Assembly: GCF_001941975.2 (NCBI RefSeq)
Contig: NZ_CP146991.1
Coordinates: forward strand, 3,531,001 to 3,595,000
DNA from: Sporomusa sphaeroides DSM 2875
Lineage (GTDB): Bacteria > Bacillota > Negativicutes > Sporomusales > Sporomusaceae
DNA length: 64,000 bases
Direction of reading: 5' to 3'
Part shown: piece after piece, positions 3,099 through 20,444 of the stretch
Layout of the letters: each line of letters begins with the position of its first letter
How positions within the stretch are numbered: position 1 is the first letter of the stretch
Notes under the pieces: generated by a model
Databases searched by the model: none
What the model saw: the letters and a program-made list of their open reading frames with translations, nothing else
Told to the model about the DNA's origin: nothing
Translations under genes and position numbers: made by a program

Positions 3099-3731
3099 CT
3101 AGTAGGTGTAGCTTAAGCCAATGTAGGTTTCGCTGTGGCGCCAGCCGGCATCGATTTTCAGACCGGGAACAATGGCCATCCGTGCACCATAGTTCATGCG
3201 GTCACCATCCCACTCGGCAATCAGGGTCGTAGCCGGAAAGATGTTGTTGCCTGTAACCGCACCGATCGGGCTGATGGTCTTTTCAATAGCGGCAAATACG
3301 CCGTCATAGCGTCCGTCACCAACACCTGCATGAAGCCGGAAGCCAAAAGGCAGGGCTTTGCTGGCCGCAGCATAGTGAGTGCGTTTAGCATCATTGCCGA
3401 TATCTTCCACACCGACAGCCAGGCCGGGAGTCAGTACCGTCTCAGATAACAGACTGTACTTGAAATTAACCAGCGTCTCGTTATCTTTGCTCACATCACT
3501 GTCATAACGGAAGCCGGCCACACCCAGTTCCAGATTTTTTGCCAGATTGAGGTTAAGGGCGCCAACGCCGCCTTCTTTTAAATGATAATAGCCAAGTGAA
3601 AACTGTCCCTCTTGCAGAACATCGGCGGTCGGAGTGTTGATCAGGCCTGTTGAACCGTTAACGGATGGTGCGGCATATGCAGGAGCTGCGGCCAATAGTA
3701 CAACAGCCGCTGCGAGAATAGTTTTTTTCAT
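3099..3731 (-). CDS. Small YjbH-like outer-membrane beta-barrel protein
   Basis: The 210-residue product has a clear Sec signal peptide (MKKTILAAAVVLLAAAPAYA, cleaved near residue 20). The mature part begins with GSTGLINTPTADVLQEG, the motif at the front of YjbH-type outer-membrane proteins. The rest alternates polar and hydrophobic residues in short strands separated by turns, and the chain ends in an aromatic residue (YTY), as BamA-dependent barrels do. It is much shorter than E. coli YjbH (about 700 residues), so a single small barrel is likely. A strong AAGGAGAAAA site precedes the ATG. The function is unknown; its position between lpxD and an LpxL-type gene suggests an envelope role. Confidence 0.72.
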   Translation of the reverse strand: MKKTILAAAVVLLAAAPAYAAPSVNGSTGLINTPTADVLQEGQFSLGYYHLKEGGVGALNLNLAKNLELGVAGFRYDSDVSKDNETLVNFKYSLLSETVLTPGLAVGVEDIGNDAKRTHYAAASKALPFGFRLHAGVGDGRYDGVFAAIEKTISPIGAVTGNNIFPATTLIAEWDGDRMNYGARMAIVPGLKIDAGWRHSETYIGLSYTY

Positions 3732-4919: not shown

Positions 4920-5342
4920 TTATTGCATTTTGCCGATTACAGCATCAGTGATATCGGTGCCGCCTTGCGCTACACTGTTTTTGTAGAGCACAACACTGAG
5001 CTTTTTCTCGGTGCTTACTTGCTCAACTGCCTGTTTGATGCTGGCGTCAATTTGGTTTTCCAGGTCTTGCTTTACCTTCAGGAAATCGCCATAAGCCGCT
5101 TCCTGACGTTTTTGGAATTCCTCGGCACTAAGGCCTGCTTTATCTTTTTCCAGTTGATCGCTCAATTCTTTGCCTTTGGTATTCAGCTGTTCTTGAAATT
5201 GTTTAATTTTCGGGCTGTCAGACATAACCTTGTTGACATCAAGAACGCCAATATTTCCCTGGCTGCTGCTGCAGCCGGCCAGTGCCAGAGCACCAACAAA
5301 GATGAGTACCAGTACTAATGCCATTTTAATCTGTTTGTTCAT
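4920..5342 (-). CDS. OmpH/Skp-family periplasmic chaperone, lipoprotein form (copy 1)
   Basis: The product is 140 residues. A signal peptide ends in the lipobox LALAGC, so the protein should be lipidated, unlike the soluble E. coli Skp. The mature part has the OmpH/Skp pattern: a short beta strand (IGVLDVNKVM), a charged coiled-coil hairpin (about residues 45-110), then a strand with VVLYKNSVAQGGTDITDAVI. Skp chaperones unfolded outer-membrane proteins between SecYEG and BamA. The ATG at 5342 was chosen because CCTAAGGAGG lies just upstream. It is the third of three tandem OmpH-type genes downstream of bamA. Confidence 0.87.
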   Translation of the reverse strand: MNKQIKMALVLVLIFVGALALAGCSSSQGNIGVLDVNKVMSDSPKIKQFQEQLNTKGKELSDQLEKDKAGLSAEEFQKRQEAAYGDFLKVKQDLENQIDASIKQAVEQVSTEKKLSVVLYKNSVAQGGTDITDAVIGKMQ

Positions 5343-5430
5343 CAGACAATCCTCCTTAGGAAGCTCTATGAGCACAAGCTCTCCCTGTGCTCATAGGCAT
5401 CTCATATTGCTCATAGTATATGCAGGCAAA

Positions 5431-6369
5431 TTATTTCTTAATCGCGTCAATCACGGCATCTGTCAGGTCTACCGCCCGAACATTGACCTGCTGTCCTGTC
5501 AGAACAGCCTCCAGGCCGCGTTCAACAGCTATTTTTGCCGTTTTATCCCGGATATCGTTCAGGATAAATTCTTCAAGAACCTTAATTTCCTGCTGTTTCA
5601 TGCCAAGCTGCTGCTGTAAGCTGCTGTCCGCGGCAGATGGCGCGGCTGCCGGCTGGGTCAGTTTTGCCGACAATTCAGCCGTTTGAGCCGACAGTTTATT
5701 ATCAAGCTCACGGTTAAGCTGGGCGGCATAAGCAGCCAGTTCCTGTTCCATAGCCGCTTTTTCCGGAGCCAGCGCCGCCTCCATTTGCTGAGCCATCTCC
5801 TGTTCTTTTGCCGACAGTTTAGCAGCCTGCTCCGCTTTTACGGCATTTATTTCCTGTTTAAGCGCAGTTGCCTGCTGTTCGTCCATACGCACAGTCTGCA
5901 ACTTTAGCTGCAGGTTAAAAAGCTGTGGCTGATATTGCTGGTTCAGTTCGCCGGCGTAAGCCTCAAGCTGTGCGGAAAGCTCCTGGCGCTTTTTCCCGGC
6001 CTGCTCCAGCAGCCGCGCCTGCAGCTCTTGCTGTTTTGCGGCAATTTTTACCTTGAATTCCTGCTCGACAGCTGATTGTATGCTGGCTGCCATATTGCCG
6101 GGTAAATTTATGGCCGCTTGTGACTGAGCAATACCTTTACCTGCCGTAGCAGCCAGCTGCTCTTTTATGGTGGCCGCCTGCTGTTTATTATTTTGCCATT
6201 CCTGGTATTTGGGATGAGACTGAACGGCTTTATCCACGCTGATAACACCCAGCTGCGGTGCTTCGGGCGGTTTGGTTTCAGGTGTTGAACGGGAGCAGCC
6301 TGCCAGCAGGACAGTGCTAAGCAGCAGAACTGCAAGAAACCTTACTGGTGTCAATTGAGAAGTAAACAC
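5431..6369 (-). CDS. OmpH/Skp-family lipoprotein with extended coiled coil (copy 2)
   Basis: This is about 312 residues, roughly twice the usual Skp length. A signal peptide ends in LLAGC, predicting a lipid-anchored cysteine, followed by a Pro-rich linker (TPETKPPEAPQ) and an OmpH-type strand (LGVISVDKAVQSHP). The middle, about residues 45-230, is almost entirely Ala/Gln/Glu/Lys/Leu coiled coil. The end matches the OmpH C-terminal strand (VERGLEAVLTGQ and AVDLTDAVIDAIKK). The GTG at 6369 has GAGGG 7 bases upstream; an overlapping TTG at 6372 is the alternative start. The long tentacle could reach across the periplasm, but this is inference. Confidence 0.8.
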   Translation of the reverse strand: MFTSQLTPVRFLAVLLLSTVLLAGCSRSTPETKPPEAPQLGVISVDKAVQSHPKYQEWQNNKQQAATIKEQLAATAGKGIAQSQAAINLPGNMAASIQSAVEQEFKVKIAAKQQELQARLLEQAGKKRQELSAQLEAYAGELNQQYQPQLFNLQLKLQTVRMDEQQATALKQEINAVKAEQAAKLSAKEQEMAQQMEAALAPEKAAMEQELAAYAAQLNRELDNKLSAQTAELSAKLTQPAAAPSAADSSLQQQLGMKQQEIKVLEEFILNDIRDKTAKIAVERGLEAVLTGQQVNVRAVDLTDAVIDAIKK

Positions 6370-6437
6370 CAAATCACCCTCTCTAGTTAAGGTTTGAGCC
6401 GAGCGCAGGCTAAAGCGGCTCGGCTCAATGATTGCAA

Positions 6438-6908
6438 TTATTTTCCGGTAAGTTTTTTCACAACATCGGCAGTCAGATCCTGACCACCATAAACTACATT
6501 ATTAACATCAAAGACCACGGCAACACCCTTCGCATCGGCAACCGATTTAATAGCGGCATCTATTTTGTCATGAATGGGCGCCAGCAGCTCTTGTTCCTTC
6601 AATTGAAGGCGTTGCATGGTTTGATTATAGTAATCTTGTTTTTCTTTAGCCGACATATTGGCTGTCTTGGCATCAAAGTCTTTTTGTGCTTGTGCTAGTT
6701 CAGCATCCAGGGTTTCTCTGGCTTGGGTCAGGTCAGGCAGCTGTTGCAGCACTAGCGCCCGGTTTACCTTGCCAATATTGGATGAGGTACCGGCCGAAGC
6801 AGCATAACCTGTAGCGCTTTGCGATATCGCCAGTCCAAATATTCCCAGTAGAAATACCGCCACTACAGCAACGGCAACCATTTTTGCAACCTTCTTATCT
6901 TTAAACAT
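6438..6908 (-). CDS. OmpH/Skp-family periplasmic chaperone (copy 3)
   Basis: The 156-residue protein begins with a basic stretch and one hydrophobic segment (about residues 10-30, VAVAVVAVFLLGIFGLAIS). It has no lipobox cysteine, so it is either a cleaved exported protein or N-terminally membrane-anchored. The OmpH pattern follows: IGKVNRALVLQQLPDL, a charged coiled coil containing SAKEKQDYYNQTMQRLQLKEQ, and the terminal strand VVFDVNNVVYGGQDLTADVV. It is the first of three OmpH-type genes in a row and lies closest to bamA, so a role in outer-membrane protein delivery is the natural reading. Confidence 0.85.
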   Translation of the reverse strand: MFKDKKVAKMVAVAVVAVFLLGIFGLAISQSATGYAASAGTSSNIGKVNRALVLQQLPDLTQARETLDAELAQAQKDFDAKTANMSAKEKQDYYNQTMQRLQLKEQELLAPIHDKIDAAIKSVADAKGVAVVFDVNNVVYGGQDLTADVVKKLTGK

Positions 6909-6993: not shown

Positions 6994-8274
6994 TTACAAA
7001 TTGGCGGTCAATCTCAGCCAATTCTCTTTTTCGGTGAAAACATACTCGGCACTGAGGAATTCATGCAGCTTATATCTGACCCCAACTTCATAGTAATCTA
7101 GCTTCGGCGTATCCTCAAGCCGGAGCATCCAGTCGCTGCCGATGTAGTGGTTAAGCCATAAGGTGCTATGGTGGTCTGAGACATTATATTTTAAACCGGC
7201 AAAAGTAGTTTCGGTAAATTTATGACCCCAGCCTGGCTCAAAGTCCCATTCCAGATTATCGGCAATAACTTTGATCTCCAAAAAGACTTCATCCCGGCTG
7301 CCTGTATATTTACCAAAATGTAATTTCGCGGAAGTAGTGTCGTCCTCGCGTCCCACATCCAGATTGCCTTCCAGCGTCAACCGGTATTTGTCAGTCTCGG
7401 CATTGAGAGTTACTTCGGTGACGACACCGGGCTCAACGACCGGCGTCAGAGTTATTCCATACCTGCTGACCAGCGATTGCTTGGCTGCCGCACTTTGCAC
7501 CACTCCGGCAAAATATTTTTGATGCCGTTCCACAAAGGCTACCGGTAAACCGCGCATCATACCCGCCGCTTCGCGGACAGCCGTACCGGCCTCGGCCAGC
7601 AGCAGGTTGGGGATAGTACGGGAGCGTAAGGAAAGCTGAACCGTATCAACAACCGGACCGCTGGGAATCAGTGATAGTTTGATGTGAGTCTCCTGCCCGG
7701 CAGTAATCTCCAGATTGCTGCGAAATTCCGGCAGCTGGTTTGCTAATAAATCGCGGATAACGACCTTGGATACTCCGCCTGCCCAGGCTACCGAGTCAAC
7801 CGGCAAGCCAATTAAGACATCGCCTACCTGCTCCTCCAGCTGCTCAATATCCCGGTTAATCAAGTTCATTACTTCCGGCGATAAACCGCCACTGTCAAGC
7901 TCAAGGGAAACGCTGCGCACCACCTCGCCCCAGGGTTCCAGCACCACTGCTATCCGGGTGGTAGTTCCCGGTGTAATGACCGCCTGTTCGACGCTGTAGC
8001 CGACAAGCACCCTGTCGAAAATCTCCCGGACAAGTTTTTCATAATTGGCCTGGTTTGTTTCCACATCGGCAACCGTTCGTCCGGCAAGCATTTCTTCCCC
8101 GACAGCCGTGATACTTGCCGTCATCCGTTTGGCAACCTTGTCCGGCGGCGGCTCAGCAGCCGTAATAGTCACCGCAATGTTATCCACCGTTGGGCCTGCG
8201 GCACTGCCGGTACCGGACCACAAGGCCAGCAGCAGGCCAAGCAGGCTGAGAACTATCAACCGGCGTGGATGCAT
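6994..8274 (-). CDS. Exported protein with three POTRA-like tandem repeats and a C-terminal barrel-like region (unrecognised family)
   Basis: This protein of about 426 residues has a signal peptide (MHPRRLIVLSLLGLLLALWSG). Three units of about 88 residues follow, each predicted beta-alpha-alpha-beta-beta. They start at TVDNIAVTI, VVRSVSLEL and VVDTVQLSL and share inner motifs GRTVADV, GLPVDSV and GLPVAFV. That topology is the one known for POTRA domains of Omp85 proteins. The last 130 residues alternate polar and aromatic residues, suggesting about 8-10 strands and an outer-membrane end (NWLRLTANL). The gene lies directly downstream of bamA and upstream of the OmpH genes, so a role in outer-membrane assembly is likely. 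I do not recognise the family. The start is unclear: the ATG at 8274 is 17 bases from a strong AGGAGG, and an ATT at 8283 is 8 bases from it. Confidence 0.78.
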   Translation of the reverse strand: MHPRRLIVLSLLGLLLALWSGTGSAAGPTVDNIAVTITAAEPPPDKVAKRMTASITAVGEEMLAGRTVADVETNQANYEKLVREIFDRVLVGYSVEQAVITPGTTTRIAVVLEPWGEVVRSVSLELDSGGLSPEVMNLINRDIEQLEEQVGDVLIGLPVDSVAWAGGVSKVVIRDLLANQLPEFRSNLEITAGQETHIKLSLIPSGPVVDTVQLSLRSRTIPNLLLAEAGTAVREAAGMMRGLPVAFVERHQKYFAGVVQSAAAKQSLVSRYGITLTPVVEPGVVTEVTLNAETDKYRLTLEGNLDVGREDDTTSAKLHFGKYTGSRDEVFLEIKVIADNLEWDFEPGWGHKFTETTFAGLKYNVSDHHSTLWLNHYIGSDWMLRLEDTPKLDYYEVGVRYKLHEFLSAEYVFTEKENWLRLTANL

Positions 8275-8342
8275 GATGCTAATGATGCACACCTCCTACT
8301 AAATGAGTCAGGCCGGCGGCCTGACTCATTAGTTACTGCTGT

Positions 8343-10076
8343 TTAGAACTGGCCGCCGAAACTGAAGTGGGTACGACCACCCTGCTCGCCTTGAGCATAA
8401 TCAATGCGGACAGGGCCTATTGGTGTGGTCAAACGGAGACCTACACCCACACTGTAGTTAAGGTCATCTAGTTTGTAGCTCCCGCCTTCCCAGGCGTTAG
8501 CGATATCGGTGAAAACAACGCCTTGCACTTTGCTAACAACCGGGAACCGGTATTCTGCCGTAGCGGCCAGCATTTTATCGCCTTCAAACTGGTCGTCCTT
8601 GTAACCGCGCAGCGTATCGGAACCACCGACAGAAAACTTGCCATTTTCCGGCATGCTGCCATCGGCATAACCGGCAGTAAGCCGGGTGGCAATTACATGA
8701 TCACGGCCAACCTTGTGGTATTGGCGGCCTTCGGCGGTATATTTGTTAAAGTTAAAGTCACCGCCAAGCGAGCCGCCGGCAAATTCGGCTGACAGGGAAT
8801 AACGGGCTCCTTCGGTAGGATTAAACACATTATCCCGGGAATCAAACACGCGCATCAGCGTAATACTGCGGGTCAGGCCAAAGTTATCTTCCAGATAGCC
8901 TTCATATGGCTGGCCTTTGGAGTAATCGTAAGGACCTTCAACATATTCAACATGCGTGTCTTTACGGTTTTTGAAAGTAATATAGTTGTGAATATATTCG
9001 CCATGCGGACGGCCAAGCGTAATATCAAAGCCTTTCCGTTTTTTATCATAGCTTGATTCCAAATGACCATCGGTATCATAATCGTCATATTCATTGGTCA
9101 TATCATAGTAGCTGAAGCTCAGCGAGGTTTGCTTGCTGTCCAGCCAGGGACGGGTATAGCTTACCTCATAGTTGGTGTCGTCGGCACCGCCAAATTCCCA
9201 GTGCAATTTGACTCTGTCGCCGGTGCCTCTAAAGTTGTTGTCACCCAGTTCGATAATGCCAACCATACCGTCGGCTTTGCTGTAACCGCCGCCAATGGAG
9301 AAGGTGCCTGTCTTTTGTTCAACAACACTGGCCTCAAGCACAACCGCATTCGGCTCTTTGCCGGGATTGAGCTTCATATTGACATCTTCAAAATGACCCA
9401 GGTTGTACACTTTTTGCATACTGCGACGGGCGTCCTTTACGTTGAAAGGCTCACCTGGCTTAAGTTTCATCTCACGGGTAATAACTTGTTCCTTGGTCTT
9501 TTCGTTGCCTTTGACCACAATGCCTTCCAGTACGCCTTCACTGATTGTCAGGGTCAGTTCCCCGCCCGGCGACATAGCTACATCACTTACTTTAGCTAAA
9601 ATATAGCCCTGGTCGTGATAGTACGACTCTATCGAGCGGACATTAGCGTTAAGGGTTCTGGTATTTAAAACGCCGTCTTTGCCTGTTGTCACCATTTCTT
9701 TAATCTTATCGGTAGATACCTTGCTATTGCCTTTAACGACAATGTCGGTTAATTTCGGGTTTTCCATAACGGTGTAAATGACTTTGACACCTTCAGGCAC
9801 TTCGCTGAAATTGGCAACAACATCAAAAAAGTAACCTAAATCATAGATTGCCTGCATGTCCTGTTTTACTTTCTCAGCCGTCAAAGCATCGCCCGGCCGG
9901 ATTGTCACCACACCCAGAATCGTACTTTCGGCAACCTGATGATTGCCTGTCACTGTTACCGCTGTAGCCGTCTTGCCTTCAATGTCTGCTGCATTAACAG
10001 GCAAGACTAAACTAACAGCCATGCTTAGCACAATCGCTGCAGCAATAAATATTTTAGACTTGTTAAGAATCTTCAT
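8343..10076 (-). CDS. bamA: BamA, outer-membrane protein assembly factor
   Basis: BamA folds and inserts beta-barrel proteins into the outer membrane. The 577-residue protein has a signal peptide (to about residue 30) and three POTRA domains, starting near residues 36, 108 and 182 (TVTGNHQV, VVKGNSKV, VVKGNEKT). Proteobacterial BamA has five. The 16-strand barrel occupies about 257-577, carries the loop-6 motif LRGY (in GGSDTLRGYKDDQFEGDKML) and ends in the Phe signal (HFSFGGQF). GAGGAGG lies before the ATG. It is flanked by a one-TM protein gene upstream and a repeat-plus-barrel gene downstream. No BamB-E lipoprotein gene is visible. Confidence 0.96.
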   Translation of the reverse strand: MKILNKSKIFIAAAIVLSMAVSLVLPVNAADIEGKTATAVTVTGNHQVAESTILGVVTIRPGDALTAEKVKQDMQAIYDLGYFFDVVANFSEVPEGVKVIYTVMENPKLTDIVVKGNSKVSTDKIKEMVTTGKDGVLNTRTLNANVRSIESYYHDQGYILAKVSDVAMSPGGELTLTISEGVLEGIVVKGNEKTKEQVITREMKLKPGEPFNVKDARRSMQKVYNLGHFEDVNMKLNPGKEPNAVVLEASVVEQKTGTFSIGGGYSKADGMVGIIELGDNNFRGTGDRVKLHWEFGGADDTNYEVSYTRPWLDSKQTSLSFSYYDMTNEYDDYDTDGHLESSYDKKRKGFDITLGRPHGEYIHNYITFKNRKDTHVEYVEGPYDYSKGQPYEGYLEDNFGLTRSITLMRVFDSRDNVFNPTEGARYSLSAEFAGGSLGGDFNFNKYTAEGRQYHKVGRDHVIATRLTAGYADGSMPENGKFSVGGSDTLRGYKDDQFEGDKMLAATAEYRFPVVSKVQGVVFTDIANAWEGGSYKLDDLNYSVGVGLRLTTPIGPVRIDYAQGEQGGRTHFSFGGQF

Positions 10077-10096: not shown

Positions 10097-10693
10097 TCAT
10101 TGTCCACGCAAAGATTTCCCGGCTAAACGAATAAGGTTGTCAACCTCGTCAGGCGTCAAAGGCAATGCTTGCTCCTGCTGAGGTTTAGTCGATGGGTGAG
10201 ATTGTTTATCCGCTGCCGGCGGCGCAGACAACTGCGGTGAGGCAGTTGTTCGGTCTTTTTCGGCTACAGCCTTATAGGCATTGGATTCAGGTACGACTGT
10301 CTGTGGTGATGATGTTGTTGTCATTACCCCGGAAAATTCATCGACTTGACTGGCTCTGGTCTGGTATACCGGGGCCGGCGTGTCAGTGGTAAGCGGCGGT
10401 TTAGCTCCATGAGAGCCTGTTGCCCACAAATAGCTGGCAGTCATCCCGCCGGCAGCAATAACAAAGGCAAGGCCAATAGCTATGCTATGCCGGAAAACAG
10501 AATAACGATGCCGCCAATGCTGCGAACGGTTTGTCTCTTTCGCCCGGGTAAGTTCAGCCTGAGCTAAAAACAAGTTGAGCTCACCACGAATATCGCTGTC
10601 TTTCTCAAAGGCCTCTTCGGCCTCTGAAAGCCACTGCTGCGCTGAGGTTAAATGTTTATTGATATTTTGTTTACAATCCGTCACATCCACCAT
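10097..10693 (-). CDS. Single-pass membrane protein between a sigma-factor gene and bamA (possible anti-sigma factor)
   Basis: The 198-residue protein has a helical, charged N-terminal region of about 65 residues (probably cytosolic), one membrane helix near residues 69-91, and a Pro/Thr/Ser/Gln-rich extracytoplasmic tail ending in a small helical piece (LTPDEVDNLIRLAGKSLRG). I do not recognise the family. The layout (cytosolic domain, one TM, outer sensing tail) and the position immediately downstream of a sigma-factor gene resemble transmembrane anti-sigma factors such as RseA. No zinc-binding HXXXCXXC motif is present, so this is only a hypothesis. A start at the GTG at 10684 is possible. 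Confidence 0.6.
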   Translation of the reverse strand: MVDVTDCKQNINKHLTSAQQWLSEAEEAFEKDSDIRGELNLFLAQAELTRAKETNRSQHWRHRYSVFRHSIAIGLAFVIAAGGMTASYLWATGSHGAKPPLTTDTPAPVYQTRASQVDEFSGVMTTTSSPQTVVPESNAYKAVAEKDRTTASPQLSAPPAADKQSHPSTKPQQEQALPLTPDEVDNLIRLAGKSLRGQ

Positions 10694-10839
10694 CCCCTAT
10701 TATAAACACTAATTATACTCCTGGGAAGAGGCCAGATTCTGGTTAGTGACAAATACTTAAAAACGGGCAAATTTTGCGTTTAGCCCGCTGAGTGTAACTA
10801 TTTCATGGTATTTTGACTAGTTTTCTCGCTATTTCATTG

Positions 10840-10905
10840 TTACGGCGCGTTTGTGTAAAACACGCTGCCGTAATACCCGGAAACGGGCGTTTATCGCCCG
10901 TTTCC
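10840..10905 (-). terminator. Two stem-loops after the sigma-factor gene
   Basis: An 11-bp perfect stem (10879-10889 with 10895-10905) touches the sigma gene stop codon. A second hairpin follows, with arms TTACGGC (10840-10846) and GCCGTAA (10867-10873). Neither has a strong T-run on the minus strand, so attenuation rather than full termination before the downstream membrane-protein gene is possible. Confidence 0.45.
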
Positions 10906-11543
10906 TACCAGTTGCCCATCAGTTTGGACAGCATCCCCCTAAGCCGGCGAATTCCCTGCTTCTGCAGGCGATAAATATGGGACACGCTTAATTCCATGCT
11001 GGCGGCCAAATCTTTCGGTTCACAATTGTCAAGATAAACACCGCTTAACACCTGCTGCTCCTTGGCAGGCAGGCGTCCCATAGCCAGCCGCAATTCTTCC
11101 ACCAGGTAGTTTTGCTCAGCTTGCGCCGCTACTTCCGCCTGCGCATCAACCAGCGAGTCGGCAATTGATACCTGTCTGCCCTCAGTCGCCATCACACCGT
11201 CAATATGCAGCAGGCTGTCGTCTTCGCGGCTTAAATGATTCAGCATCCGCCCCCTGATACGGTGTACGGCAAATAAGCTGAAGGCAATGCCTCGGGTATG
11301 GTCATAGTTCTCCACAGCTTCGATCAGTCCGACCGTTCCTTCCTGAATCAGGTCCAGGATAACGGCCTCAGGCAGGCGCCAGCGCATGGCGGTTTTGAAA
11401 ACCAACGGCTGGTAACTTTCTATCAGGCGGCGACGGCAAGCCAAATCGCCACCTGCTTTGTACCCCTGCCATAACGCCAGTTCTTCGTCCGGCGTCAGTG
11501 TGCGGACTTTTTTCAGTTCAGTCAAGTATTCGCTGAGTAACAT
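10905..11543 (-). CDS. Sigma-70 family alternative sigma factor
   Basis: The 212-residue protein has sigma region 2 (about 40-110, including DLIQEGTVGLIEAVENYD and FSLFAVHRIRGRMLNHL), a short middle part, and a region 4 helix-turn-helix (LAASMELSVSHIYRLQKQGI) near the C-terminus. Region 1.1 is absent. The region 2 motif and size resemble group 3 factors (FliA/SigF-like) rather than ECF factors. AAGGA lies 8 bases before the ATG. Its place between tamB and bamA suggests it controls envelope genes, perhaps with the membrane protein encoded just downstream. The target promoters are unknown. Confidence 0.85.
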   Translation of the reverse strand: MLLSEYLTELKKVRTLTPDEELALWQGYKAGGDLACRRRLIESYQPLVFKTAMRWRLPEAVILDLIQEGTVGLIEAVENYDHTRGIAFSLFAVHRIRGRMLNHLSREDDSLLHIDGVMATEGRQVSIADSLVDAQAEVAAQAEQNYLVEELRLAMGRLPAKEQQVLSGVYLDNCEPKDLAASMELSVSHIYRLQKQGIRRLRGMLSKLMGNW

Positions 11544-11563: not shown

Positions 11564-14500
11564 TCAGAAAGTAAACCTGGTCTCAACAGTAAGCAGATTG
11601 TTCTTCGAATCGCTGCCAAAGCTGCCGCCGATGCCAATATTTCTGGTCAAATCATAACGGAAACCGAAGCTGTTGTTATTATCCTGATCAAGACCCATAC
11701 TATAACTGATTAAAAATTTATCGGTAAGATATTTACCTACTTCAATATTATAGCCCTCTAACTGGCTGTCAGAGTCATTCCGGCGCGAGCGTCTGCCGCC
11801 ATAGTCAAACAGCGACGACCGTACCAGCCGCAATTCGTCAACCCCCAGCGTTTCCTGCAGGACGCTTTCCACCTCGGCAATAAACCGCAGCTGGAGGCCT
11901 GCATCCAGCAGGCTGACAAGCTCATCGCGTCCTAAAGTGCTGTCAGAGGCTCCCGAATCGGTCTTGGAAAAATAGCTGCCGCGCAAAGTTAAGAGTGACA
12001 GGATTTCCTCCTGGCTCATAGCCGGTTCGGCGGTCAGTTTAAGATCCATGGCGGAAACCGGGCCGTTAATTCCCAGGTTAATGGTTGTACGCGAAAGCCT
12101 GGTTTGGGCTTGCAGCCTGATTACCGGCTCAATGGAACGGAACTGGATGAAGTCGGCACTGCCGCTGATAATGTTAAACCGGTTGGTTAAATATCTGACC
12201 GTACCCCGCCTTGCTTCAATTCGTCCTGAAGCCGAAGGCCGCTGCAGGGTTCCGGCAAATTTAACCTTCCCTTCGGCCATGAAATCATACAGGTAGGGAT
12301 TATACAGCCGGACCTTATTGCCGACAGTAACTTCCACATCCAGACCGGCGTTAAAGGCAATCGCCTCACCGTCAGGCACTGCCGGAATATTGACAGTGGC
12401 ATTGTCAACTGTCAGCCGGCCATAAATATGAGGTCTGTTATTCTGGCTGGTTAATGTAAAAACGCCGTCAATAGGACCGGAAAAATAGTTGTGTTTTACA
12501 CCCAGCCGGTCCAGGGTAAGCATGATATCATACTGGTCCAATCCCAGGCCGTTCAGTCTGGCCGACCCATTCATGGAGTAAGAACCGCCCCCCATGTTCC
12601 CGTCAAAGGCATTTATATTTATTGTATCACCTTTAAACTGAATATCAACCCCCACATTTTCTATCGGGTCGGAAAGTGACTTAAGTTTTATTTTGCCATT
12701 AGCCACCGTCACCTTGCCGTCAAGCGTAGGCTGGGCCAGTGTGCCGCCGACAGCCAGCTCGCCTGTTGTCGGTCCGGCTGCCCAGGCCACTTCCTTGGTC
12801 AGCAGCGGCAATATGCTCAAATCGGCATTGTCCAGGCGTAAGATAAGGTCCATGGTGTCGGTAATATCGGCCTGACTGCGGCCCTGACTGTTCAGCGCCC
12901 GCAGCGGCACAACGCCATAGGCACTTGCTTTGTACGGTCCACGGGCCACATACAACTGGTTAACATGAATGCTGCCTTTGTCGAAAACCAACAACCCGTA
13001 CAGATTGTCAAATTCCGTGTGGGCCACACTGCCGTTTTGTACTTCCAGCGATACCGCAACATTCGGGTTCTGGGTCCGGCCGGTGGCTTGCGCATTAAAA
13101 CTAAACTGCCCTTTGGTTTCAACCGTGGTATCAAAGAGCGCCGTCAAAATGCCGATATCAATGGATCGTCCGCCTGCTTCCACTTCAATCTCACCGTTTA
13201 AATCCGCCTTGCCTTTAACAACCAGCAAGCCGTCGGCTCCCTGTTTAGCCGTGAAGGTATTGACTGTAATAATTTTATTTTCCATTTCGACGTCAATGTC
13301 AATGGTATCAAGCGGGTAATTTTTTATTTTGCCGTCATAGATGGCGCCGCGCAGCAGGATGTTGGGATTATGCATATTACCGTTTACGGCAATCTCACCG
13401 CTCAGCCTGCCGCGAATACCGCGGTCCGGCATGTTGGCAATGGTCATAATACTGACGAGTTCACCGCCTTCAGCGCGGAGCAGGCCGTCAATTTCCGCAG
13501 TTTTAAAGTTAACTCCGCCGCCGAAAACATAGTGCCCCTGGCCTTGGGAAAATCGCAATTCCCGGATATCGGCCTGACCGTCAGCGTAACTGAAACTGGC
13601 ATACATATCGCTGACTGCCTGACCATTAAGCAAGACGCCGCTTGCTCTCAATTGACCGGTAACCTCCGGGCTTGTTACCTTGCCTGTCACCTTACCGTTC
13701 AGACTGGCTATACCTGATACCGGATAAGGATATTCTGCTTTTAGCCTGGTAATATCGATATTCTCGGCCGCTACGGCAAAGTCCATGCTTTCATCGGCGG
13801 TTACCGTTCCTGATAGCCTGATTTTAGCAGTAAACGAATCTATATCCAGCTGGTTCACGGTTATCAGACCGTTCTGCCATTGGTAGGTGCCTTCAGCCTT
13901 GCCAATAAGATACCCTGCCAGACTGCCTTCCGATAATTTCACCCTGCCGCTCACGGCCGGATTAACCAAGGGACCGCGTATTGTCAGTTCATGCTCAATA
14001 TTACCTGTTAACGCGAGTTTGGGAATTAGCGGGCGGACAAAGGTTTCCGCCCTGGCAGCATGGGTTGTGAGGGTAAGGTTACATTCCGGCTGAATTCCGG
14101 CAAAAGTTATTGTTCCGGAAAAATCATGCAGGGCAGCACCATTGGTAAGGATAACTTTTTCAAAGGCCACCCTGTCCGGCGAAGCCGTAATGAGCCCACG
14201 GGCCTGGCCCCAGGGTTCCTGATTCAGGCTGAGACCGTCGGCGTCAAACGTGAGCGCAAGCTGCGGCTGGGTCAGCGTGCCTGTCAGCTGGCCCTGGAAG
14301 CCGGCTGTTCCGGCAAAGTGAATATCTTTTATAGCAAAGGGTAATTGTGCCAGTTCTATGCCTTGCCCCTCAATCGCCAGCTTGAGCTGTTCATCTTCCA
14401 TAACGCCAGCTGCCGTTATCAGACCTGAGGGCAGGATAAGATCATAGTGTTTAATCTCGGTAAGACTGCCGGTCCGCTCAACAAGTGCCGTCATTTTGGT

Positions 14501-15895
14501 GTAAGGCACACCGGCCAGCTGGCCGTCAGCCAGAGTTACCGCCACTAAGCCATTGATGGTTTGCCAGTCGGTTCCCTGACCGGTAACCGACAGGCTGATA
14601 TCCCCTCTGCCGCTAAGGGCAACAGGGAGGTCTTGGGCCTCGGCAGCATCCAGATTGCTGGCAGCCAGCTGTACCTGATACTGCCGGCTTGTCAGGTCCA
14701 GAGTTCCCTGGCCCTGCACCTGACCGCCAAGCATTTGTGCGGCAAACTGCTCTAACTGCAGTTGATTATCCGCAAAATTCACTTTGGCGCTGGCAGCCTG
14801 CAGCTGATAACCGGCAATAACAGCTTCTTTTGCCGAAAGCTCGGCTGTTGCTACCGGCATGGCCAGCGTCCCGGTGAGTTTGGCGGAAAATGCAATGATG
14901 CCGGCAACAGGCAGGTTATAGCTAATTGTCGCCACATCAAAATTAGCTGATTCCACACTGAGGTCAAAAACCGGCTGGTCACCGGCTATGGCAATTTTGC
15001 CGCGGGCAGCTACCGGCTGATTGTTAATAAGCGCACTGGTACCAAGCAGGTACACCGCGTTATTAGTAAAGCTCACACGACCGCGCGTTTCGGCAACAGG
15101 CACCCCCTGTACCTGTACCGATAAATCCTCTAATAAAAATTCTCCCGCATAGCTTAATCCGGCAGAATTGCTGACAACCGTTACTTCCAGCTCCGCCAGA
15201 GCACCATCGGTAAAAACCAGGCCGGCTTTGGCAGGTACCAGCGATTGGTAAGCAGCCGGGTGAAGCTTATCAGCCGCCACAGTGACTGACAGGCTTTTCC
15301 GGGCAGTGTTAACAAACCCCCGGGCAGTCACCGGCGAGCCGCCCAGGCTGGCACTTAGCTTGATATCGATAGACTGGCCGTTTTTAATAATAAGCTGACC
15401 GTCGGCACCGGTTAAATCCCAGGTTCCCTGCAAGGCTTGAATCCGGACAGCGGCCTCTTTAACCACAATCTTACCGGTAAAAGCCGAATCATCCGGCTTG
15501 CTCTCCTGGGCCAGGCAGGCAATATTCCAGACACTGTCCGATTCTTCCACCAACAGCACTTCCGGCCGGGTAAGGGTAATTTGACTGATGGCGTTTATTG
15601 CAGTTTGACCGCGCGCCAAACGGAGTATATTATAGTCTACCGTAACTTGCTCGATAACGGCCAGTTTCCGGCCTTGTTTATCAAATACGGTAACGCCGTC
15701 GACAGCCGCTGAAGAAAGTCCGGCTATGTGCAGCTGGCCAACCTCCACCTGGGTCCCCAGTGCCGCTGTCAGTTCGGTGGCAAGTGTTGCTTCAATCCGG
15801 GAAAACACTGCGGGGCTGTGAGCCGACCACCAGGCAAAAGCAGCCATGACCAGCACAAACAATATCAGGATTGCAGCAATAGCTTTGGTTCGCAT
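11564..15895 (-). CDS. tamB: TamB-like translocation/lipid-transport protein (DUF490, AsmA-like)
   Basis: The 1443-residue protein has an N-terminal membrane helix (MRTKAIAAILILFVLVMAAFAWW). A very long run of repeating beta strands follows, with the recurrent pattern of short hydrophobic strands and GxL/GxV turns seen in the beta-taco groove of AsmA-like proteins. The TamB/DUF490 domain fills the last 350 residues, which end in aromatic barrel-like strands (LLTVETRFTF). TamB-type proteins bridge inner and outer membranes and carry phospholipids or assist barrel assembly. The ATG at 15895 was chosen because AAGGAGGCG precedes it; a start 78 bases upstream lacks a site. No TamA gene is in the window, so its outer-membrane partner may be BamA (inference). 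Confidence 0.92.
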   Translation of the reverse strand: MRTKAIAAILILFVLVMAAFAWWSAHSPAVFSRIEATLATELTAALGTQVEVGQLHIAGLSSAAVDGVTVFDKQGRKLAVIEQVTVDYNILRLARGQTAINAISQITLTRPEVLLVEESDSVWNIACLAQESKPDDSAFTGKIVVKEAAVRIQALQGTWDLTGADGQLIIKNGQSIDIKLSASLGGSPVTARGFVNTARKSLSVTVAADKLHPAAYQSLVPAKAGLVFTDGALAELEVTVVSNSAGLSYAGEFLLEDLSVQVQGVPVAETRGRVSFTNNAVYLLGTSALINNQPVAARGKIAIAGDQPVFDLSVESANFDVATISYNLPVAGIIAFSAKLTGTLAMPVATAELSAKEAVIAGYQLQAASAKVNFADNQLQLEQFAAQMLGGQVQGQGTLDLTSRQYQVQLAASNLDAAEAQDLPVALSGRGDISLSVTGQGTDWQTINGLVAVTLADGQLAGVPYTKMTALVERTGSLTEIKHYDLILPSGLITAAGVMEDEQLKLAIEGQGIELAQLPFAIKDIHFAGTAGFQGQLTGTLTQPQLALTFDADGLSLNQEPWGQARGLITASPDRVAFEKVILTNGAALHDFSGTITFAGIQPECNLTLTTHAARAETFVRPLIPKLALTGNIEHELTIRGPLVNPAVSGRVKLSEGSLAGYLIGKAEGTYQWQNGLITVNQLDIDSFTAKIRLSGTVTADESMDFAVAAENIDITRLKAEYPYPVSGIASLNGKVTGKVTSPEVTGQLRASGVLLNGQAVSDMYASFSYADGQADIRELRFSQGQGHYVFGGGVNFKTAEIDGLLRAEGGELVSIMTIANMPDRGIRGRLSGEIAVNGNMHNPNILLRGAIYDGKIKNYPLDTIDIDVEMENKIITVNTFTAKQGADGLLVVKGKADLNGEIEVEAGGRSIDIGILTALFDTTVETKGQFSFNAQATGRTQNPNVAVSLEVQNGSVAHTEFDNLYGLLVFDKGSIHVNQLYVARGPYKASAYGVVPLRALNSQGRSQADITDTMDLILRLDNADLSILPLLTKEVAWAAGPTTGELAVGGTLAQPTLDGKVTVANGKIKLKSLSDPIENVGVDIQFKGDTININAFDGNMGGGSYSMNGSARLNGLGLDQYDIMLTLDRLGVKHNYFSGPIDGVFTLTSQNNRPHIYGRLTVDNATVNIPAVPDGEAIAFNAGLDVEVTVGNKVRLYNPYLYDFMAEGKVKFAGTLQRPSASGRIEARRGTVRYLTNRFNIISGSADFIQFRSIEPVIRLQAQTRLSRTTINLGINGPVSAMDLKLTAEPAMSQEEILSLLTLRGSYFSKTDSGASDSTLGRDELVSLLDAGLQLRFIAEVESVLQETLGVDELRLVRSSLFDYGGRRSRRNDSDSQLEGYNIEVGKYLTDKFLISYSMGLDQDNNNSFGFRYDLTRNIGIGGSFGSDSKNNLLTVETRFTF

Positions 15896-16071
15896 GGCAC
15901 GCCTCCTTGGCCTTGGATATTCCGCACTAAAAAAATACAGCAGGCGCAGGCGGGTAGTACTTGACGCCTGCACAAACAGCTAGCACGCTACATATGGCTA
16001 TCCGGTAAAATTCGACGTCATGAGGTTGTCTTCCTCTATGATATTCCTGGGAATTTGACTCAGAACCGAAG

Positions 16072-16127: not shown

Positions 16128-17477
16128 CTATTCTACTGCTATTCCCATAGCTTTGTCGAGTTTTGCCCGGCTGGTGTTATAGTCATACAGTGCCTGCACA
16201 TAATCAGTCTTGGCTGAAGTCAGAGCAACCTGTGAGTCAATAACGTCAAGGTTGGTACCCACGCCGGCGCTGTAACGCACCTGGGCAATTTTAAAATCTT
16301 CTTCGGCTTTTGTTACAGCCACCTTACTGGTATCAATGCGTTTTTCGGCCTCTTTCATATTAAGATAGGCCTGACGCACTTCCAGCTGGGCGGCATCCTG
16401 TGCCTGGCGCAGCTGCTCGGTGGCTTTATCCAGACCGGCTTCGGCGCCTTTGACCTGCGATCTGGTTAAGCCTGAATCAAACAGGTTGTAGTTGGCACTA
16501 ATACCGATAGTCCAATTATTGTTATCGGTGCCGGGAAAATCATTGTCACTCCATTGTTCGGAAGCAGAAGCCGCTATTACCGGCTTATTGCCGCTTTTCG
16601 CCACCTTAATATCGGCTTTGGCACTGGCGACGCTCGCCCTGACCTGCGCTAAATCCGGACGGTTGACAAGGGCAACTTCAATGCATTCTGCCAAAGTCTT
16701 ATCATATTGTTCATATGGCAAATCCTCTTGAACCGCGATCTCAGTCTCAAGCGGCAGGCCGATAATATTATTAAGGCCGGATACCGCAAGCTCGTAGGAA
16801 TTTTTAGCTCTAATCAGGCTTTGTTCCGCACTGGCTTTTTCCACTTCTGAACGCAATACGTCAGTTTTGGCTACCGTTCCGGCAGCATACTGGGCTTCAA
16901 CATTTTTCAAGTGACTATTGAGCTGGTCTAACGATTCTTCACTCAGTTTCACCAGGTTGCGGGTTTGCAGGATAGCATAATATCCGGTAGTGGCATCCAG
17001 TTTAATCTGCTGACGGGTCTTTTCCAGGCCAAAGGCAGCCGATTTATTCCCCAACTGGGCTTTTTCGATAGTGCCTTCCAGCTTGCCGCCAGTATATAAA
17101 GGCAGGGTCAGATCAACACTGTTGGTGTATCTGTTGCCAATACTTGACGGAATGGGTACTGAAAAAAGCTGTCCTGTCGTCGAATTATAGGCCGCCACAC
17201 TCGATTCGGCACTCTTAGACCGGATAGAGTTGTGAGAAAGATTCACCGACGGTGATTTAGCTGCTTTTGCGCCCTTTACATCCCATTCGGATTTTTTCAG
17301 ATCAGATTCAGACATTTTAATTGACGGGTTGGTTTTGAGGGCCATGTCGATGGCTTCATCAAGCGTAAGCTCTACCGGCGCGGCAAAGCCCGGAAGTGCA
17401 GCTGTCGCCAGCATGCCGCCGACAAGTAGTGCCGTGGCACGCTTAGCCAGGTTGCCGGATAAATTGAATGTTGTCAT
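16128..17477 (-). CDS. tolC: TolC-family outer-membrane efflux protein
   Basis: The product is 449 residues, with a signal peptide to about residue 32 (LPGFAAP). Two related halves follow, each with a long amphipathic helical pair and short barrel strands, as in the outer-membrane factor family (for example LDEAIDMALKTNPSI in the first and LAECIEVALVNRPDLAQVRA in the second). TolC trimers form the outer-membrane channel of tripartite efflux pumps and type I secretion systems. No inner-membrane pump or adaptor gene is adjacent, so it may serve several partners. Upstream, GGAGG lies 12 bases from the ATG, and an ATG-TAA pair stands in between. Confidence 0.92.
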   Translation of the reverse strand: MTTFNLSGNLAKRATALLVGGMLATAALPGFAAPVELTLDEAIDMALKTNPSIKMSESDLKKSEWDVKGAKAAKSPSVNLSHNSIRSKSAESSVAAYNSTTGQLFSVPIPSSIGNRYTNSVDLTLPLYTGGKLEGTIEKAQLGNKSAAFGLEKTRQQIKLDATTGYYAILQTRNLVKLSEESLDQLNSHLKNVEAQYAAGTVAKTDVLRSEVEKASAEQSLIRAKNSYELAVSGLNNIIGLPLETEIAVQEDLPYEQYDKTLAECIEVALVNRPDLAQVRASVASAKADIKVAKSGNKPVIAASASEQWSDNDFPGTDNNNWTIGISANYNLFDSGLTRSQVKGAEAGLDKATEQLRQAQDAAQLEVRQAYLNMKEAEKRIDTSKVAVTKAEEDFKIAQVRYSAGVGTNLDVIDSQVALTSAKTDYVQALYDYNTSRAKLDKAMGIAVE

Positions 17478-17613
17478 GGAATTACATGACCTCCTTGACT
17501 ATATATCTTTTGTCAAAGCATTGACTACTCAGTCAGACACATATAATTATAGGTCCAAGTTTTGAAAGTGTCAATATTTTTCCGCTGCCGGAATGGCCTG
17601 AAGAATATGCCTG

Positions 17614-18885
17614 TTAAAAGGCTCGCCGCACGCCGTAGTATGACGTTTTTTCATCGCTTTTGTTGATATTGCTGGTCTGGCCTACAAGAAAAGTATCTGG
17701 CGCCACCTCATACTGGGTACGCAGCTTGACCCGCACATCATTTGGATCATATACATCCAGCGACATGCGCAGTTGGCTGCCGAGTTTGGCATCCATGCCC
17801 ACTCCGGCTTTGCTTTCAATAAGACCTATCCGCTGGTCGAAGCCTGAGCCGCTCTTGCCTACCTGTAAGTTTACTTTATTGGCTTCGCCAATATCCGTAA
17901 CACCGATGACGGCAAAATCACGGGGCGAAGTATTGATAGTAAAATTGGCATTGCTTTGGTATTCATGCTTGTCCGGGTTGTATATGGCTTCAACACTGGC
18001 TTCGGTTTTAATCTCTGCCACCTTTGTCAGCATTTGGTTGGCCTTGGAGGTGGCATCTCTGGCATTCTTGAGAGTGTCCTTAAGATTGCTGGCAGTGTCC
18101 GGGTCTGTTACAACCCCTTCTAACGCGGCAGCCATTCTTTCCACCCGACTGCTGGTCTGCCGGAAGGCGGCAATGGTTTCCCGCAAATCTTCGGCAGTCT
18201 GCCCGTTGTTATCAACATCGGCAAGCATTTTATCTACCCGGGCTGCGGTAGAATTAAGGCTGACTGACATGTCCTTGAGATTACTGACCATGGCCGCGAC
18301 TTCGACCTGGTTAGTCTCGGCCATGCCGGCCAACGTGGCTGTCAGCCTTTCCAGGTTGGCGGTAACAGCCCTGGTGTTTAACGCCGTTTCCTTAAGCGCC
18401 GCCCGGACTTTTTCATCACCAACCACATCATTAAGGGCTGCCACCAGGATTTTAACTTCAGCCAGCACCTCATTGGCCGACACCATCAACTCATCCAGCC
18501 CCTGAGGATTCTCACCCAATACCTGCGCATTAGGGGCCAGAAAGCCGTTTACTTCCCGGGGCGGTACAATATTGATGAACTTTTCCCCCAATAGCCCGTC
18601 AGACCCAATGGTAATTTTTGAGCCAACCGGAATTTTCACGCCAGGGTTAAGTATAATATGGGCTGACACACCCTCAGGCAGCACCCGGACATCGGCAACT
18701 GTGCCAATTTCCACCCCGGCATAACGCACCAGATTGCCTGGCTTCAAACCATTTACCTGATTAAATACAGCCTGGACCGGATATCCCTTTTCGCCAAAAC
18801 TTATGCCGGTTAAATATACAATCATCCCGGCCAGCAGCATTAGGCCGGCCAGGGTTATCGCTCCCACTTTGGCTTCGGTATTCAC
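17614..18885 (-). CDS. mlaD: MlaD-like MCE protein with C-terminal barrel-like region
   Basis: The 423-residue protein has an N-terminal TM helix (about 8-30) and one MCE domain (about 38-118, with GNLVRYAGVEIGTVADV). A long helical segment follows (about 125-300), then a beta-strand-rich end of about 125 residues finishing in an aromatic residue (YYGVRRAF). E. coli MlaD is only about 183 residues. In Veillonella, MlaD with the same MCE-helix-barrel layout has been described as a one-protein transenvelope bridge for phospholipids, and this looks like the same type. The GTG start overlaps the mlaF stop by 4 bases (GTGA), so translation is probably coupled. Confidence 0.92.
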   Translation of the reverse strand: MNTEAKVGAITLAGLMLLAGMIVYLTGISFGEKGYPVQAVFNQVNGLKPGNLVRYAGVEIGTVADVRVLPEGVSAHIILNPGVKIPVGSKITIGSDGLLGEKFINIVPPREVNGFLAPNAQVLGENPQGLDELMVSANEVLAEVKILVAALNDVVGDEKVRAALKETALNTRAVTANLERLTATLAGMAETNQVEVAAMVSNLKDMSVSLNSTAARVDKMLADVDNNGQTAEDLRETIAAFRQTSSRVERMAAALEGVVTDPDTASNLKDTLKNARDATSKANQMLTKVAEIKTEASVEAIYNPDKHEYQSNANFTINTSPRDFAVIGVTDIGEANKVNLQVGKSGSGFDQRIGLIESKAGVGMDAKLGSQLRMSLDVYDPNDVRVKLRTQYEVAPDTFLVGQTSNINKSDEKTSYYGVRRAF

Positions 18886-19640
18886 GCTCTGGACCTCCCT
18901 CTATTTTCCGCTATCCCTGTGGCTCCCCGGATAAACTTCGCCACAATGGGATTTTCCGATTGTTTTATCATGGCCGGTGTGCCAATTTCCACAATGCCGC
19001 CGCCATAAATCATGGCAATCCGGTCGGCAATGCTAAAAGCGCTCGCCATATCATGGGTAACAACAACCGAAGTAGCGTCAATCATCCGTCTGGTGCTGAC
19101 AATTAACCGGTCAATCGTGTTGGACATGATGGGGTCAAGCCCGGCGGTGGGTTCATCATACAGCACAATATGCGGATTAATGGCAATAGCCCGGGCTAAG
19201 CTGACCCGTTTTTTCATACCGCCTGACAGTTCGTTCGGCATGGCATTTTCCTGGCCCCTGAGGCCCACCATGCGCAACTTGCGCCGCACCGTCCGGGCAA
19301 TTTCCTCCTCCGGCATGGCGGTATGCTGCCTGAGGCCGAAGGCTACATTCTCCCCCACCGACATGGAGTCAAACAGGGCTGAGTATTGGAATACCATCCC
19401 CATCTCCAGCCTGATTTTATTAAGCTCATCCTCATTCATATGGGAAATCTCCCGGCCATTAACCCAAACCTCACCGGCAGTGGGCTGCAAGAGACCGATG
19501 ATAAGTCTTAGCAGCGTACTTTTGCCGGAACCGCTGGGACCGATAATAACCATAATTTCCCCTTGTTCAATTGTCAGGCTAATGTCTTTCAGTATTTCTT
19601 TGCCGCGAAAATTCATATTGACATTAATAAGTTTAATCAC
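18882..19640 (-). CDS. mlaF: MlaF-type ABC ATPase of phospholipid transport
   Basis: The 252-residue protein contains Walker A (GPSGSGKST, about residue 36), the ABC signature (LSGGMKKRV) and Walker B (IVLYDEPTAGLDP), all typical of MlaF/Ttg2A. MlaF pairs with MlaE and powers phospholipid movement between the membranes. The GTG start has GAGGTG 5 bases before it. It lies 33 bases downstream of mlaE and overlaps mlaD by 4 bases, so mlaE-mlaF-mlaD form an operon. MlaA, MlaB and MlaC genes are absent here, consistent with the reduced system of diderm Firmicutes. Confidence 0.94.
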   Translation of the reverse strand: MIKLINVNMNFRGKEILKDISLTIEQGEIMVIIGPSGSGKSTLLRLIIGLLQPTAGEVWVNGREISHMNEDELNKIRLEMGMVFQYSALFDSMSVGENVAFGLRQHTAMPEEEIARTVRRKLRMVGLRGQENAMPNELSGGMKKRVSLARAIAINPHIVLYDEPTAGLDPIMSNTIDRLIVSTRRMIDATSVVVTHDMASAFSIADRIAMIYGGGIVEIGTPAMIKQSENPIVAKFIRGATGIAENRGRSRA

Positions 19641-19673
19641 GGCGGCACCTCATTTCTACAATTGGTAGTGTTA

Positions 19674-20444
19674 CTAGCGATAAAGTATAACTGATAAAAA
19701 ATAATTGCTGATAAAAATCAAAATAATGGACAGCACCACCGAGCCTGTTGTCGCCCGGCCTACCCCTTCCGCGCCCTGGGCGGTGGTCAGGCCTTTGTGG
19801 CAGCCGATAATGGCAATAATGGCACCAAAGAACATGGCTTTGATCAGACCGCCGGTAATGTCATGCGGCACGGCAAAAACCTTAATGGAATTAAAAAAAG
19901 TAAAAGAGGTAATGCCGGTATAGGTTGTGGCAATTATATAACTGCCAATGATACCAATACCATTGGCAAAGATAACCAGTACAGGCAGCATAAGCATACA
20001 GGCAAGCATCCTGGGCACGACCAGGTACGCTATCGGATTTACTGCCATAACCCGCAAGGCGTCAATTTGCTCTGTTACCTTCATCGAGCCAATTTCAGCC
20101 GTGATAGCAGCGCCTACCCGCCCGGCAAATACTACGCCGGTCAGGACCGGCGACAATTCACGGCCCATCGCCACCGCCACCAGCCCGCCGACCGACGACT
20201 GCGCCCCGTATTTGACAAATTCATGACCTGTCTGGACAGTCATAACCATACCGGTAAACAGCATGGTTAATAACACGATAGGCAGCGAATCCGCCCCCAG
20301 ATGAGCCATCTGCCGCACAAGCAGCGTGGTGCTCAACCCGCGCAAATGGTATATACTCTGACCTAACAGAATCAGGACCTGTCCTGCATTTTCCAGAATG
20401 CCAATAACCATTCTCCCTGTACGGGCGAAAAACTCAATAAGCAT
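19674..20444 (-). CDS. mlaE: MlaE-type ABC permease of phospholipid transport
   Basis: The 256-residue membrane protein has five to six hydrophobic segments. It also carries the MlaE family motif region GAAITAEIGSMKVTEQIDALRVM in the first half and a long loop with MLACMLMLPVLVIFANGIGI. It forms the membrane core of the MlaFED complex. AAGGAGC lies just before the ATG at 20444. It is the first gene of the mlaEFD group and the first of the whole leftward outer-membrane cluster, so the promoter should lie between it and the 20.57-kb repeat. Confidence 0.94.
   Translation of the reverse strand: MLIEFFARTGRMVIGILENAGQVLILLGQSIYHLRGLSTTLLVRQMAHLGADSLPIVLLTMLFTGMVMTVQTGHEFVKYGAQSSVGGLVAVAMGRELSPVLTGVVFAGRVGAAITAEIGSMKVTEQIDALRVMAVNPIAYLVVPRMLACMLMLPVLVIFANGIGIIGSYIIATTYTGITSFTFFNSIKVFAVPHDITGGLIKAMFFGAIIAIIGCHKGLTTAQGAEGVGRATTGSVVLSIILIFISNYFLSVILYR

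Follow-up and report, generated by a model that had tools for sequence, protein, structure and literature searches.

What does a protein that joins POTRA-like repeats to a small C-terminal beta domain do in the middle of an operon of bamA and skp genes? We met this question in a window of 64,000 nucleotides (the whole stretch of DNA analysed) from Sporomusa sphaeroides DSM 2875. An earlier note on this DNA had proposed an Omp85-like protein of three tandem POTRA-like repeats and a small barrel, filling the place of TamA or of the Bam lipoproteins in diderm Firmicutes, and had suggested structure prediction, profile searches and a survey of gene order in Negativicutes as checks. The genes of the locus, from tamB downwards, are:

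11564..15973 (-), tamB, by family profile match
10905..11543 (-), sigma-70 family factor, with Pfam regions 2 and 4 and an ECF-like make-up
10097..10693 (-), hyp198, a candidate membrane anti-sigma factor
8343..10076 (-), bamA, by family profile match
6994..8274 (-), the POTRA gene, 426 aa from the ATG at 8274, with three predicted POTRA domains and a small C-terminal beta domain
6438..6908 (-), skp-like 1 (OmpH, Pfam)
5431..6372 (-), skp-like 2, long, with an OmpH match below the cut-off
4920..5375 (-), skp-like 3 (OmpH, Pfam)

An alternative GTG start at 8292 would give the POTRA protein 432 aa (open reading frame 8292-6994(-)). Upstream of tamB, at 16128-20444(-), we labelled by eye one gene as TolC-like, a long one as MlaD-like and its companions as MlaF- and MlaE-like. 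Adjoining lpxD, at 3099-3731(-), there is a short (210 aa) YjbH-like protein, which occupies the same place in many loci and matches positions 6-132 only of the 658-position Pfam YjbH model.

The POTRA protein itself can be divided as follows:

8200..8274 (-), signal-peptide-like N-terminus, residues 1-25, read by eye
7930..8187 (-), POTRA domain 1, residues ~30-115, by AlphaFold2, VIA and hhalign
7660..7920 (-), POTRA domain 2, residues ~119-205, by AlphaFold2, VIA and hhalign
7393..7650 (-), POTRA domain 3, residues ~209-294, by AlphaFold2, VIA and hhalign
6997..7389 (-), C-terminal beta domain, residues 296-426, with ~10 short amphipathic antiparallel strands predicted
6997..7020 (-), beta-signal-like C-terminal end WLRLTANL, by terminal-residue alignment

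AlphaFold2, given three sequences (those of the window and of loci L001 and L002), predicted three beta-alpha-alpha-beta-beta units (residues 32-114, 121-204 and 211-294), with pLDDT mostly 70-90 but lower where unit 2 passes into unit 3. The motif on which the repeats had been recognised (GRTVADV, GLPVDSV, GLPVAFV) occupies a corresponding place in every unit, and the family profiles of the units find one another in hhalign (E 1.8e-10 for units 1 and 2, 4.2e-10 for units 2 and 3, and 8.3e-8 for units 1 and 3). A Foldseek search with the model of the POTRA part returned 55 matches at E <= 0.001, with E from 2e-7, and the best 50 of these 55 are all BamA, TamA, Toc75 or other Omp85 chains. VIA gave Z up to 7.4, and while a Z below 8 may mean merely a common arrangement, here nearly every match has the same fold: 49 of the 50 among the matches listed are POTRA-bearing proteins (BamA, TamA, CdiB, Toc75, FtsQ), the exception being a protein from a phage. 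From the predicted units, the Foldseek and VIA matches and the mutual profile homology we therefore conclude that the three repeats are, at the level of the predicted fold, POTRA-type domains, and no credible match to an unrelated family emerged. Comparing the units with the POTRAs of BamA proteins encoded at loci of this kind, hhalign found no similarity (prob 0.2, the BamA alignment being shallow), so the kinship rests on the fold. The profile searches did not bear out a relation to the Pfam POTRA families by sequence: none matched the protein or any of the 47 members of alignment A1 searched singly. The single sequence found nothing credible in Pfam, NCBIfam, PHROG or PDB sequence searches, nor did the profile of A1 against PDB. 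We judged to be chance both a match of the protein to NF002291 (E 0.0067, far under its cut-off) and single-member Pfam matches such as DUF5594 (E 0.0018).

The position of the gene between bamA and the Skp-like genes, pointed out before, proved to be fixed. Among 59 fetched loci, with a few genomes represented twice, bamA is directly upstream in all 58 that encode the POTRA protein, and skp lies downstream in all 55 encoding loci that reach so far. The survey of gene order also uncovered two upstream neighbours, the sigma factor and hyp198, which stand between tamB and bamA in 25/25 encoding loci reaching two genes above bamA. Outside the class, 12 loci carry the POTRA gene; the 10 that reach upstream all have the sigma factor and hyp198 (in L118 with an extra open reading frame between the two), and in the other two the contig begins at the POTRA gene.

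We followed the gene through samples of relatives, of the class and of the phylum, all within the window's phylum. Of 60 relatives, 57 gave a match at E <= 1, 56 of them a clear one; the weak match is that of G047 (E 0.008), whose locus L058 contains no POTRA-gene match. It is present in 204 of 252 class genomes (>= 90% completeness) and in 24 of 398 phylum genomes (>= 80% completeness), 12 of these 24 being outside the class. All 24 belong to the 102 phylum genomes with an Omp85 protein (Fisher 7e-16), which, within the phylum sample, agrees with the proposed link to diderm Firmicutes, though a sample from one phylum does not establish that the protein is unique to them. BamA is present in 46 of the 47 searched class genomes without the POTRA gene; among individual cases, G041 and G034 have BamA without the gene, and G002 and G047 gave no BamA match. 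We examined 25 class bamA loci without the gene, two of which (L224 and L233) start inside bamA, leaving 23 readable upstream: in 21 of these tamB immediately precedes bamA (it was not recognised there in L217 and L219), and skp is directly downstream in 19 of the 25.

Some side observations concern BamA itself and one genus. In Negativicutes without the POTRA gene (L126-L133, L215-L228, L231, L232) the BamA open reading frames have 611-752 aa, partial ones aside, and that of L130 has a low-complexity N-terminal stretch; the window BamA has 577 aa, and some carriers of the POTRA gene also have long BamA frames. In genus g65 (L130, L218, L223, L224, L225, L231) the sigma factor, hyp198 and the POTRA gene (hereafter the trio) are absent as far as readable and skp does not follow bamA; the operon seems to be broken up there.

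The three genes of the trio largely come and go together. A profile of the N-terminal part of hyp198 (alignment A3) matches 203 of the 252 class genomes, 201 of which share the POTRA gene; the other two matches are marginal (G147, E 0.0072; G157, E 0.0066) and no hyp198 was found at their bamA loci as far as readable. A clear hyp198 occurs in 0/48 class genomes without the POTRA gene, and neither hyp198 nor the sigma factor was found upstream of bamA in any of the 23 readable class loci lacking it. Three carriers gave no hyp198 match (G097, G172, G197), all at contig ends: in G097 hyp198 is cut by the contig end with its C-terminal motif still visible, and in G172 and G197 the contigs end before or inside bamA. 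Since the regular expression used to gather A3 missed L056 and L125, we did not use the conserved columns of that alignment as evidence. In the phylum sample hyp198 accompanies the POTRA gene in 24/24 carriers. It matches six further phylum genomes, marginally in G325 and G461 and clearly in G275, G470, G582 and G636. In these last four, all outgroups, sigma factor and hyp198 are present and the POTRA gene is absent, so the pair can exist without it; at the 21 bamA loci of Omp85 carriers outside the class that lack the gene, 4 have both sigma factor and hyp198 and 17 have neither.

In order to count independent events we made a BamA tree by a quick method with SH-aLRT support only; of its 80 loci, 35 have the POTRA gene and 39 have hyp198. 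It took the longer-flanked loci, left out those with BamA missing or < 400 residues, and scored L224, unreadable upstream, as without hyp198. On this tree the POTRA gene changes 12 times, 11 of them forced by supported branches, and hyp198 changes the same way in a mean of 10.1 of 11 independent pairs and the opposite way in none (median p 0.002). As the POTRA gene lies below bamA and the pair above it, a single simple deletion would not remove the trio and spare bamA. Whole-operon replacement by transfer could have this effect, but on the tree loci with and without the trio are sisters of the same genus or family (L055/L215, L057/L127).

As read from the sequence, hyp198 begins with a part of ~55-65 residues that would be cytoplasmic and, by eye, helical, followed by a single transmembrane stretch, a linker, rich in Pro in most members (not in L038), and a C-terminal motif. 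It gave no Pfam match at E <= 0.01, FecR included, and therefore matches no known anti-sigma family. In the window the motif lies at:

10100..10159 (-), C-terminal stretch of hyp198 with [DE]xxxLxxxAxxxL, by tail pattern search

This pattern was written after the tails had been inspected. In its strict form it occurs in 27/37 hyp198 tails that accompany a POTRA gene, with ~0.1 expected by shuffling, and in a loose form in 34/37, with ~2.1 expected; the three Negativicutes carriers L052, L053 and L054 have not even the loose motif. Neither form occurs in the four hyp198 proteins without a POTRA gene (L202, L206, L209, L214), which occupy three places on the BamA tree. The association of loose motif and POTRA gene gives a Fisher value of 3e-4, and within the outgroups alone the contrast is 10/10 against 0/4 (p 0.001). 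A profile of the Negativicutes tails works weakly on outgroup tails: it misplaces or misses the carriers L114, L115 and L118, gives L119 -4.8 bits, and scores the four proteins without a POTRA gene no better than -2.0 bits. Because the pattern is post hoc and the profile weak on outgroups, it is a small number of outgroup cases that carries the contrast. What the genomes display is thus a fixed place in the operon, a presence and absence shared with hyp198 over the BamA tree, and a link between tail motif and POTRA gene; given the joint inheritance and the motif link, the simplest account is that the hyp198 tail docks on the POTRA protein.

An accessory factor of the BAM or TAM machinery could also be envisaged, whose POTRA domains take clients from Skp or TamB and hand them to BamA, the sigma factor and hyp198 merely regulating. 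In Omp85 proteins the POTRA domains serve for docking, and both the fixed place after bamA in 58/58 encoding loci and the Omp85 protein found in 24/24 phylum carriers would agree with such a role. Yet BamA, TamB and Skp persist without the POTRA gene, the gene tracks hyp198 instead, and the link to the C-terminal tail of hyp198 would be left unexplained, so that we think this reading unlikely.

We then come to the C-terminal domain, analysed in an alignment of 136 distinct family sequences (Neff 109). Hydrophobicity alternates along the ~130 residues with a z of 4.6 against shuffled columns, compared with 2.4 in the POTRA part, on a scale in which we had raised W and Y, and about ten short strands would fit this length. 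Residue couplings were computed for 45 antiparallel strand pairs in a test that was not blind, because a first run of couplings had preceded the choice of strand limits. The top five pairs (3.93-3.15) are all sequence-adjacent hairpins, although a control in parallel register scored up to 3.36 and so exceeded the fifth of these pairs; two adjacent pairs, 8-9 and 6-7, had low ranks, and the barrel-closing pair 1-10 came 17th of 45. The chain ends in an aromatic or hydrophobic beta signal, as outer-membrane proteins do: of the 126 aligned POTRA proteins reaching the end (136 examined), 125 finish with L or F, and 12 outgroup ends comprise 10 L/F, one I and one W. AlphaFold2 gave the domain a pLDDT of ~30 within the whole protein and a mean of 44.7 when modelled alone, for which reason the latter model was kept out of the fold search. 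Pfam OMP_b-brl matched weakly in 4/47 members, the best at E 0.05, and hhalign found weak profile similarity to the C-terminus of TamB (prob 32) and to the small YjbH-like neighbour (prob 28). The protein therefore combines, by computation, a POTRA-type fold with an amphipathic, strand-rich C-terminal domain that has an outer-membrane-type end. The small barrel that had been proposed stands as a small beta domain of ~10 predicted strands; judged from sequence, that it closes into an outer-membrane barrel is likely.

Alternatively, the C-terminal domain may be a beta sheet docking on BamA or another barrel, leaving the protein periplasmic or peripheral. The closure not seen in the couplings, the poor AlphaFold2 models and the weak similarity to the TamB C-terminus would all suit such a sheet, but the strong strand alternation and the terminal L/F are those of integral outer-membrane proteins, and we consider it improbable.

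The protein resembles the Omp85 superfamily (BamA, TamA, FhaC/CdiB, Toc75) in carrying tandem POTRA-type domains followed by an outer-membrane-type beta domain. It differs in that this domain has only ~130 residues and ~10 strands, with no match to Omp85 (PF01103) or ShlB (PF03865) at E <= 1 among the 47 members, and in that hhalign found no profile similarity of its POTRA units to the BamA POTRAs of such loci. It is thus not an Omp85 protein: what had been called Omp85-like holds for the POTRA part, by fold, and fails for the 16-stranded barrel. A survey of the superfamily distinguishes ten bacterial subfamilies and, in the parts consulted, including the legend of its Figure 1, no small-barrel class (PMC4104836).

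A tether across the envelope, in which hyp198 in the inner and the POTRA protein in the outer membrane join the two in the manner of TonB or TolA, with the sigma factor as an independent regulator, would make use of the same parts. The architecture of hyp198, in which a single transmembrane stretch is followed by a Pro-rich linker and a conserved end, and the tie of its motif to the POTRA gene could be expected of such a device; however, hyp198 stands beside the sigma factor also where the POTRA gene is absent, then without the motif (4 loci), as fits regulation as the older role, and a tether appears quite improbable. That the protein takes the place of TamA or of the Bam lipoproteins we reject as the main reading: genomes without the gene retain bamA, tamB and skp, and a TamA should be present where TamB is, yet 21 of the 23 readable class loci lacking the gene have tamB directly ahead of bamA.

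Sigma factors with regions 2 and 4, such as the one found here, are often paired with a membrane anti-sigma factor. The gap between sigma gene and hyp198 measures ~130-210 nt in most Negativicutes and is nearly absent in the outgroups L114, L117 and L121. In the window it contains:

10714..10735 (-), promoter-like element ahead of hyp198, with a KGANTRTA core, within the gap 10694-10904(-)

With three near-duplicates left out, and with a pattern written after the sequences had been inspected, the core occurs in 21/23 Negativicutes gaps (shuffled mean 1.4, largest 7) and 1/11 outgroup gaps. Gibbs sampling of the gaps reached 10.6 bits against 8.2-8.7 in shuffles but converged on sequence that close relatives have in common, and for this reason we report only the short core, which could be a housekeeping -10 box. 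We found no second good copy of the element in the genome (two further matches with 3 mismatches, against 11 control matches), and therefore no wider regulon is shown.

Given these observations, we hold it moderately probable that the bam operon contains a sigma/anti-sigma circuit of its own, with the POTRA protein as its outer-membrane arm. The protein would be secreted, and its small C-terminal beta domain, presumably a closed barrel, would insert it in the outer membrane, with the three POTRA domains left in the periplasm. From the inner membrane, hyp198 would restrain the neighbouring sigma factor as an anti-sigma factor through its cytoplasmic N-terminal part, while its Pro-rich linker would take the C-terminal helix across the periplasm, where the tail may bind the POTRA domains directly. 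Failed outer-membrane assembly, or unfolded clients occupying the POTRA domains, might be the trigger sensed; a change in docking would then free the sigma factor and raise the operon (hyp198, bamA, the POTRA gene and skp), though the signal may be of another nature or run in the other direction. Evidence against this circuit comes from the four outgroup genomes with sigma factor and hyp198 but no POTRA gene, and further from the missing Pfam match of hyp198, the post hoc tail pattern with its three Negativicutes exceptions, the promoter-like element without a good second copy and the low-confidence models of the beta domain.

Such a protein would work like Fec- or Cnr-type signalling with different parts. 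In the FecA-FecR-FecI system of cell-surface signalling, an outer-membrane protein with a periplasmic domain acts through a single-pass inner-membrane regulator on a sigma factor. The locus described here likewise encodes a putative outer-membrane protein with a periplasmic domain, a predicted single-pass inner-membrane protein and a sigma factor, but with POTRA domains for the STN domain, a small beta domain for the TonB-dependent receptor, and hyp198 without a FecR match. A TonB-dependent transducer with an STN domain found no Pfam support at E <= 1 in the protein and the 47 members, and the beta domain is too short for one. In sigmaE-RseA and CnrH-CnrY-CnrX, a single-pass membrane protein, which has a partner in the periplasm, restrains the sigma factor; the same three roles are proposed here, with the difference that the partner would be an outer-membrane POTRA protein and that the circuit would lie within the tamB-bamA-skp operon.

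In the parts consulted, work on diderm Firmicutes describes BamA, TamB and Skp without Bam lipoproteins and names no regulator (PMC5007114, PMC5491611, PMC10665443). One of these papers names BamA, TamB and Skp at the locus; its three conserved unknowns are others, and the word sigma does not occur in the text consulted (PMC5007114). In Veillonella parvula, TamB (Vpar_0526), BamA (Vpar_0527) and three Skp (Vpar_0528-0530) are consecutive (PMC5491611), and as consecutive locus numbers leave no room for it there, work in that species, going by the parts consulted, would not meet the trio. Among the papers listed, chiefly openly accessible journal articles, on sigma and anti-sigma factors, POTRA domains or envelope stress in Negativicutes, on combinations of diderm Firmicutes, BamA and anti-sigma factors, and on anti-sigma factors with POTRA domains, we found none that, judged by title and the start of its abstract, treats this system.

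More broadly, and with rather less than even confidence, we propose that diderm Firmicutes possess a self-reporting outer-membrane assembly circuit within the bam operon, in which the POTRA protein would be both a client of BamA and a sensor that, via the hyp198 tail, sets the operon's own sigma factor. If true, an ECF-like sigma factor would receive its signal across the periplasm from POTRA domains carried by a small barrel, and there would have been many losses of the trio as a unit, one of them in Veillonella, a model organism of the field. As to how diderm Firmicutes monitor the building of their outer membrane, for which the parts of the literature consulted name no regulator, the trio of sigma factor, membrane protein and POTRA protein, co-inherited in one operon, is a directly testable regulator candidate.
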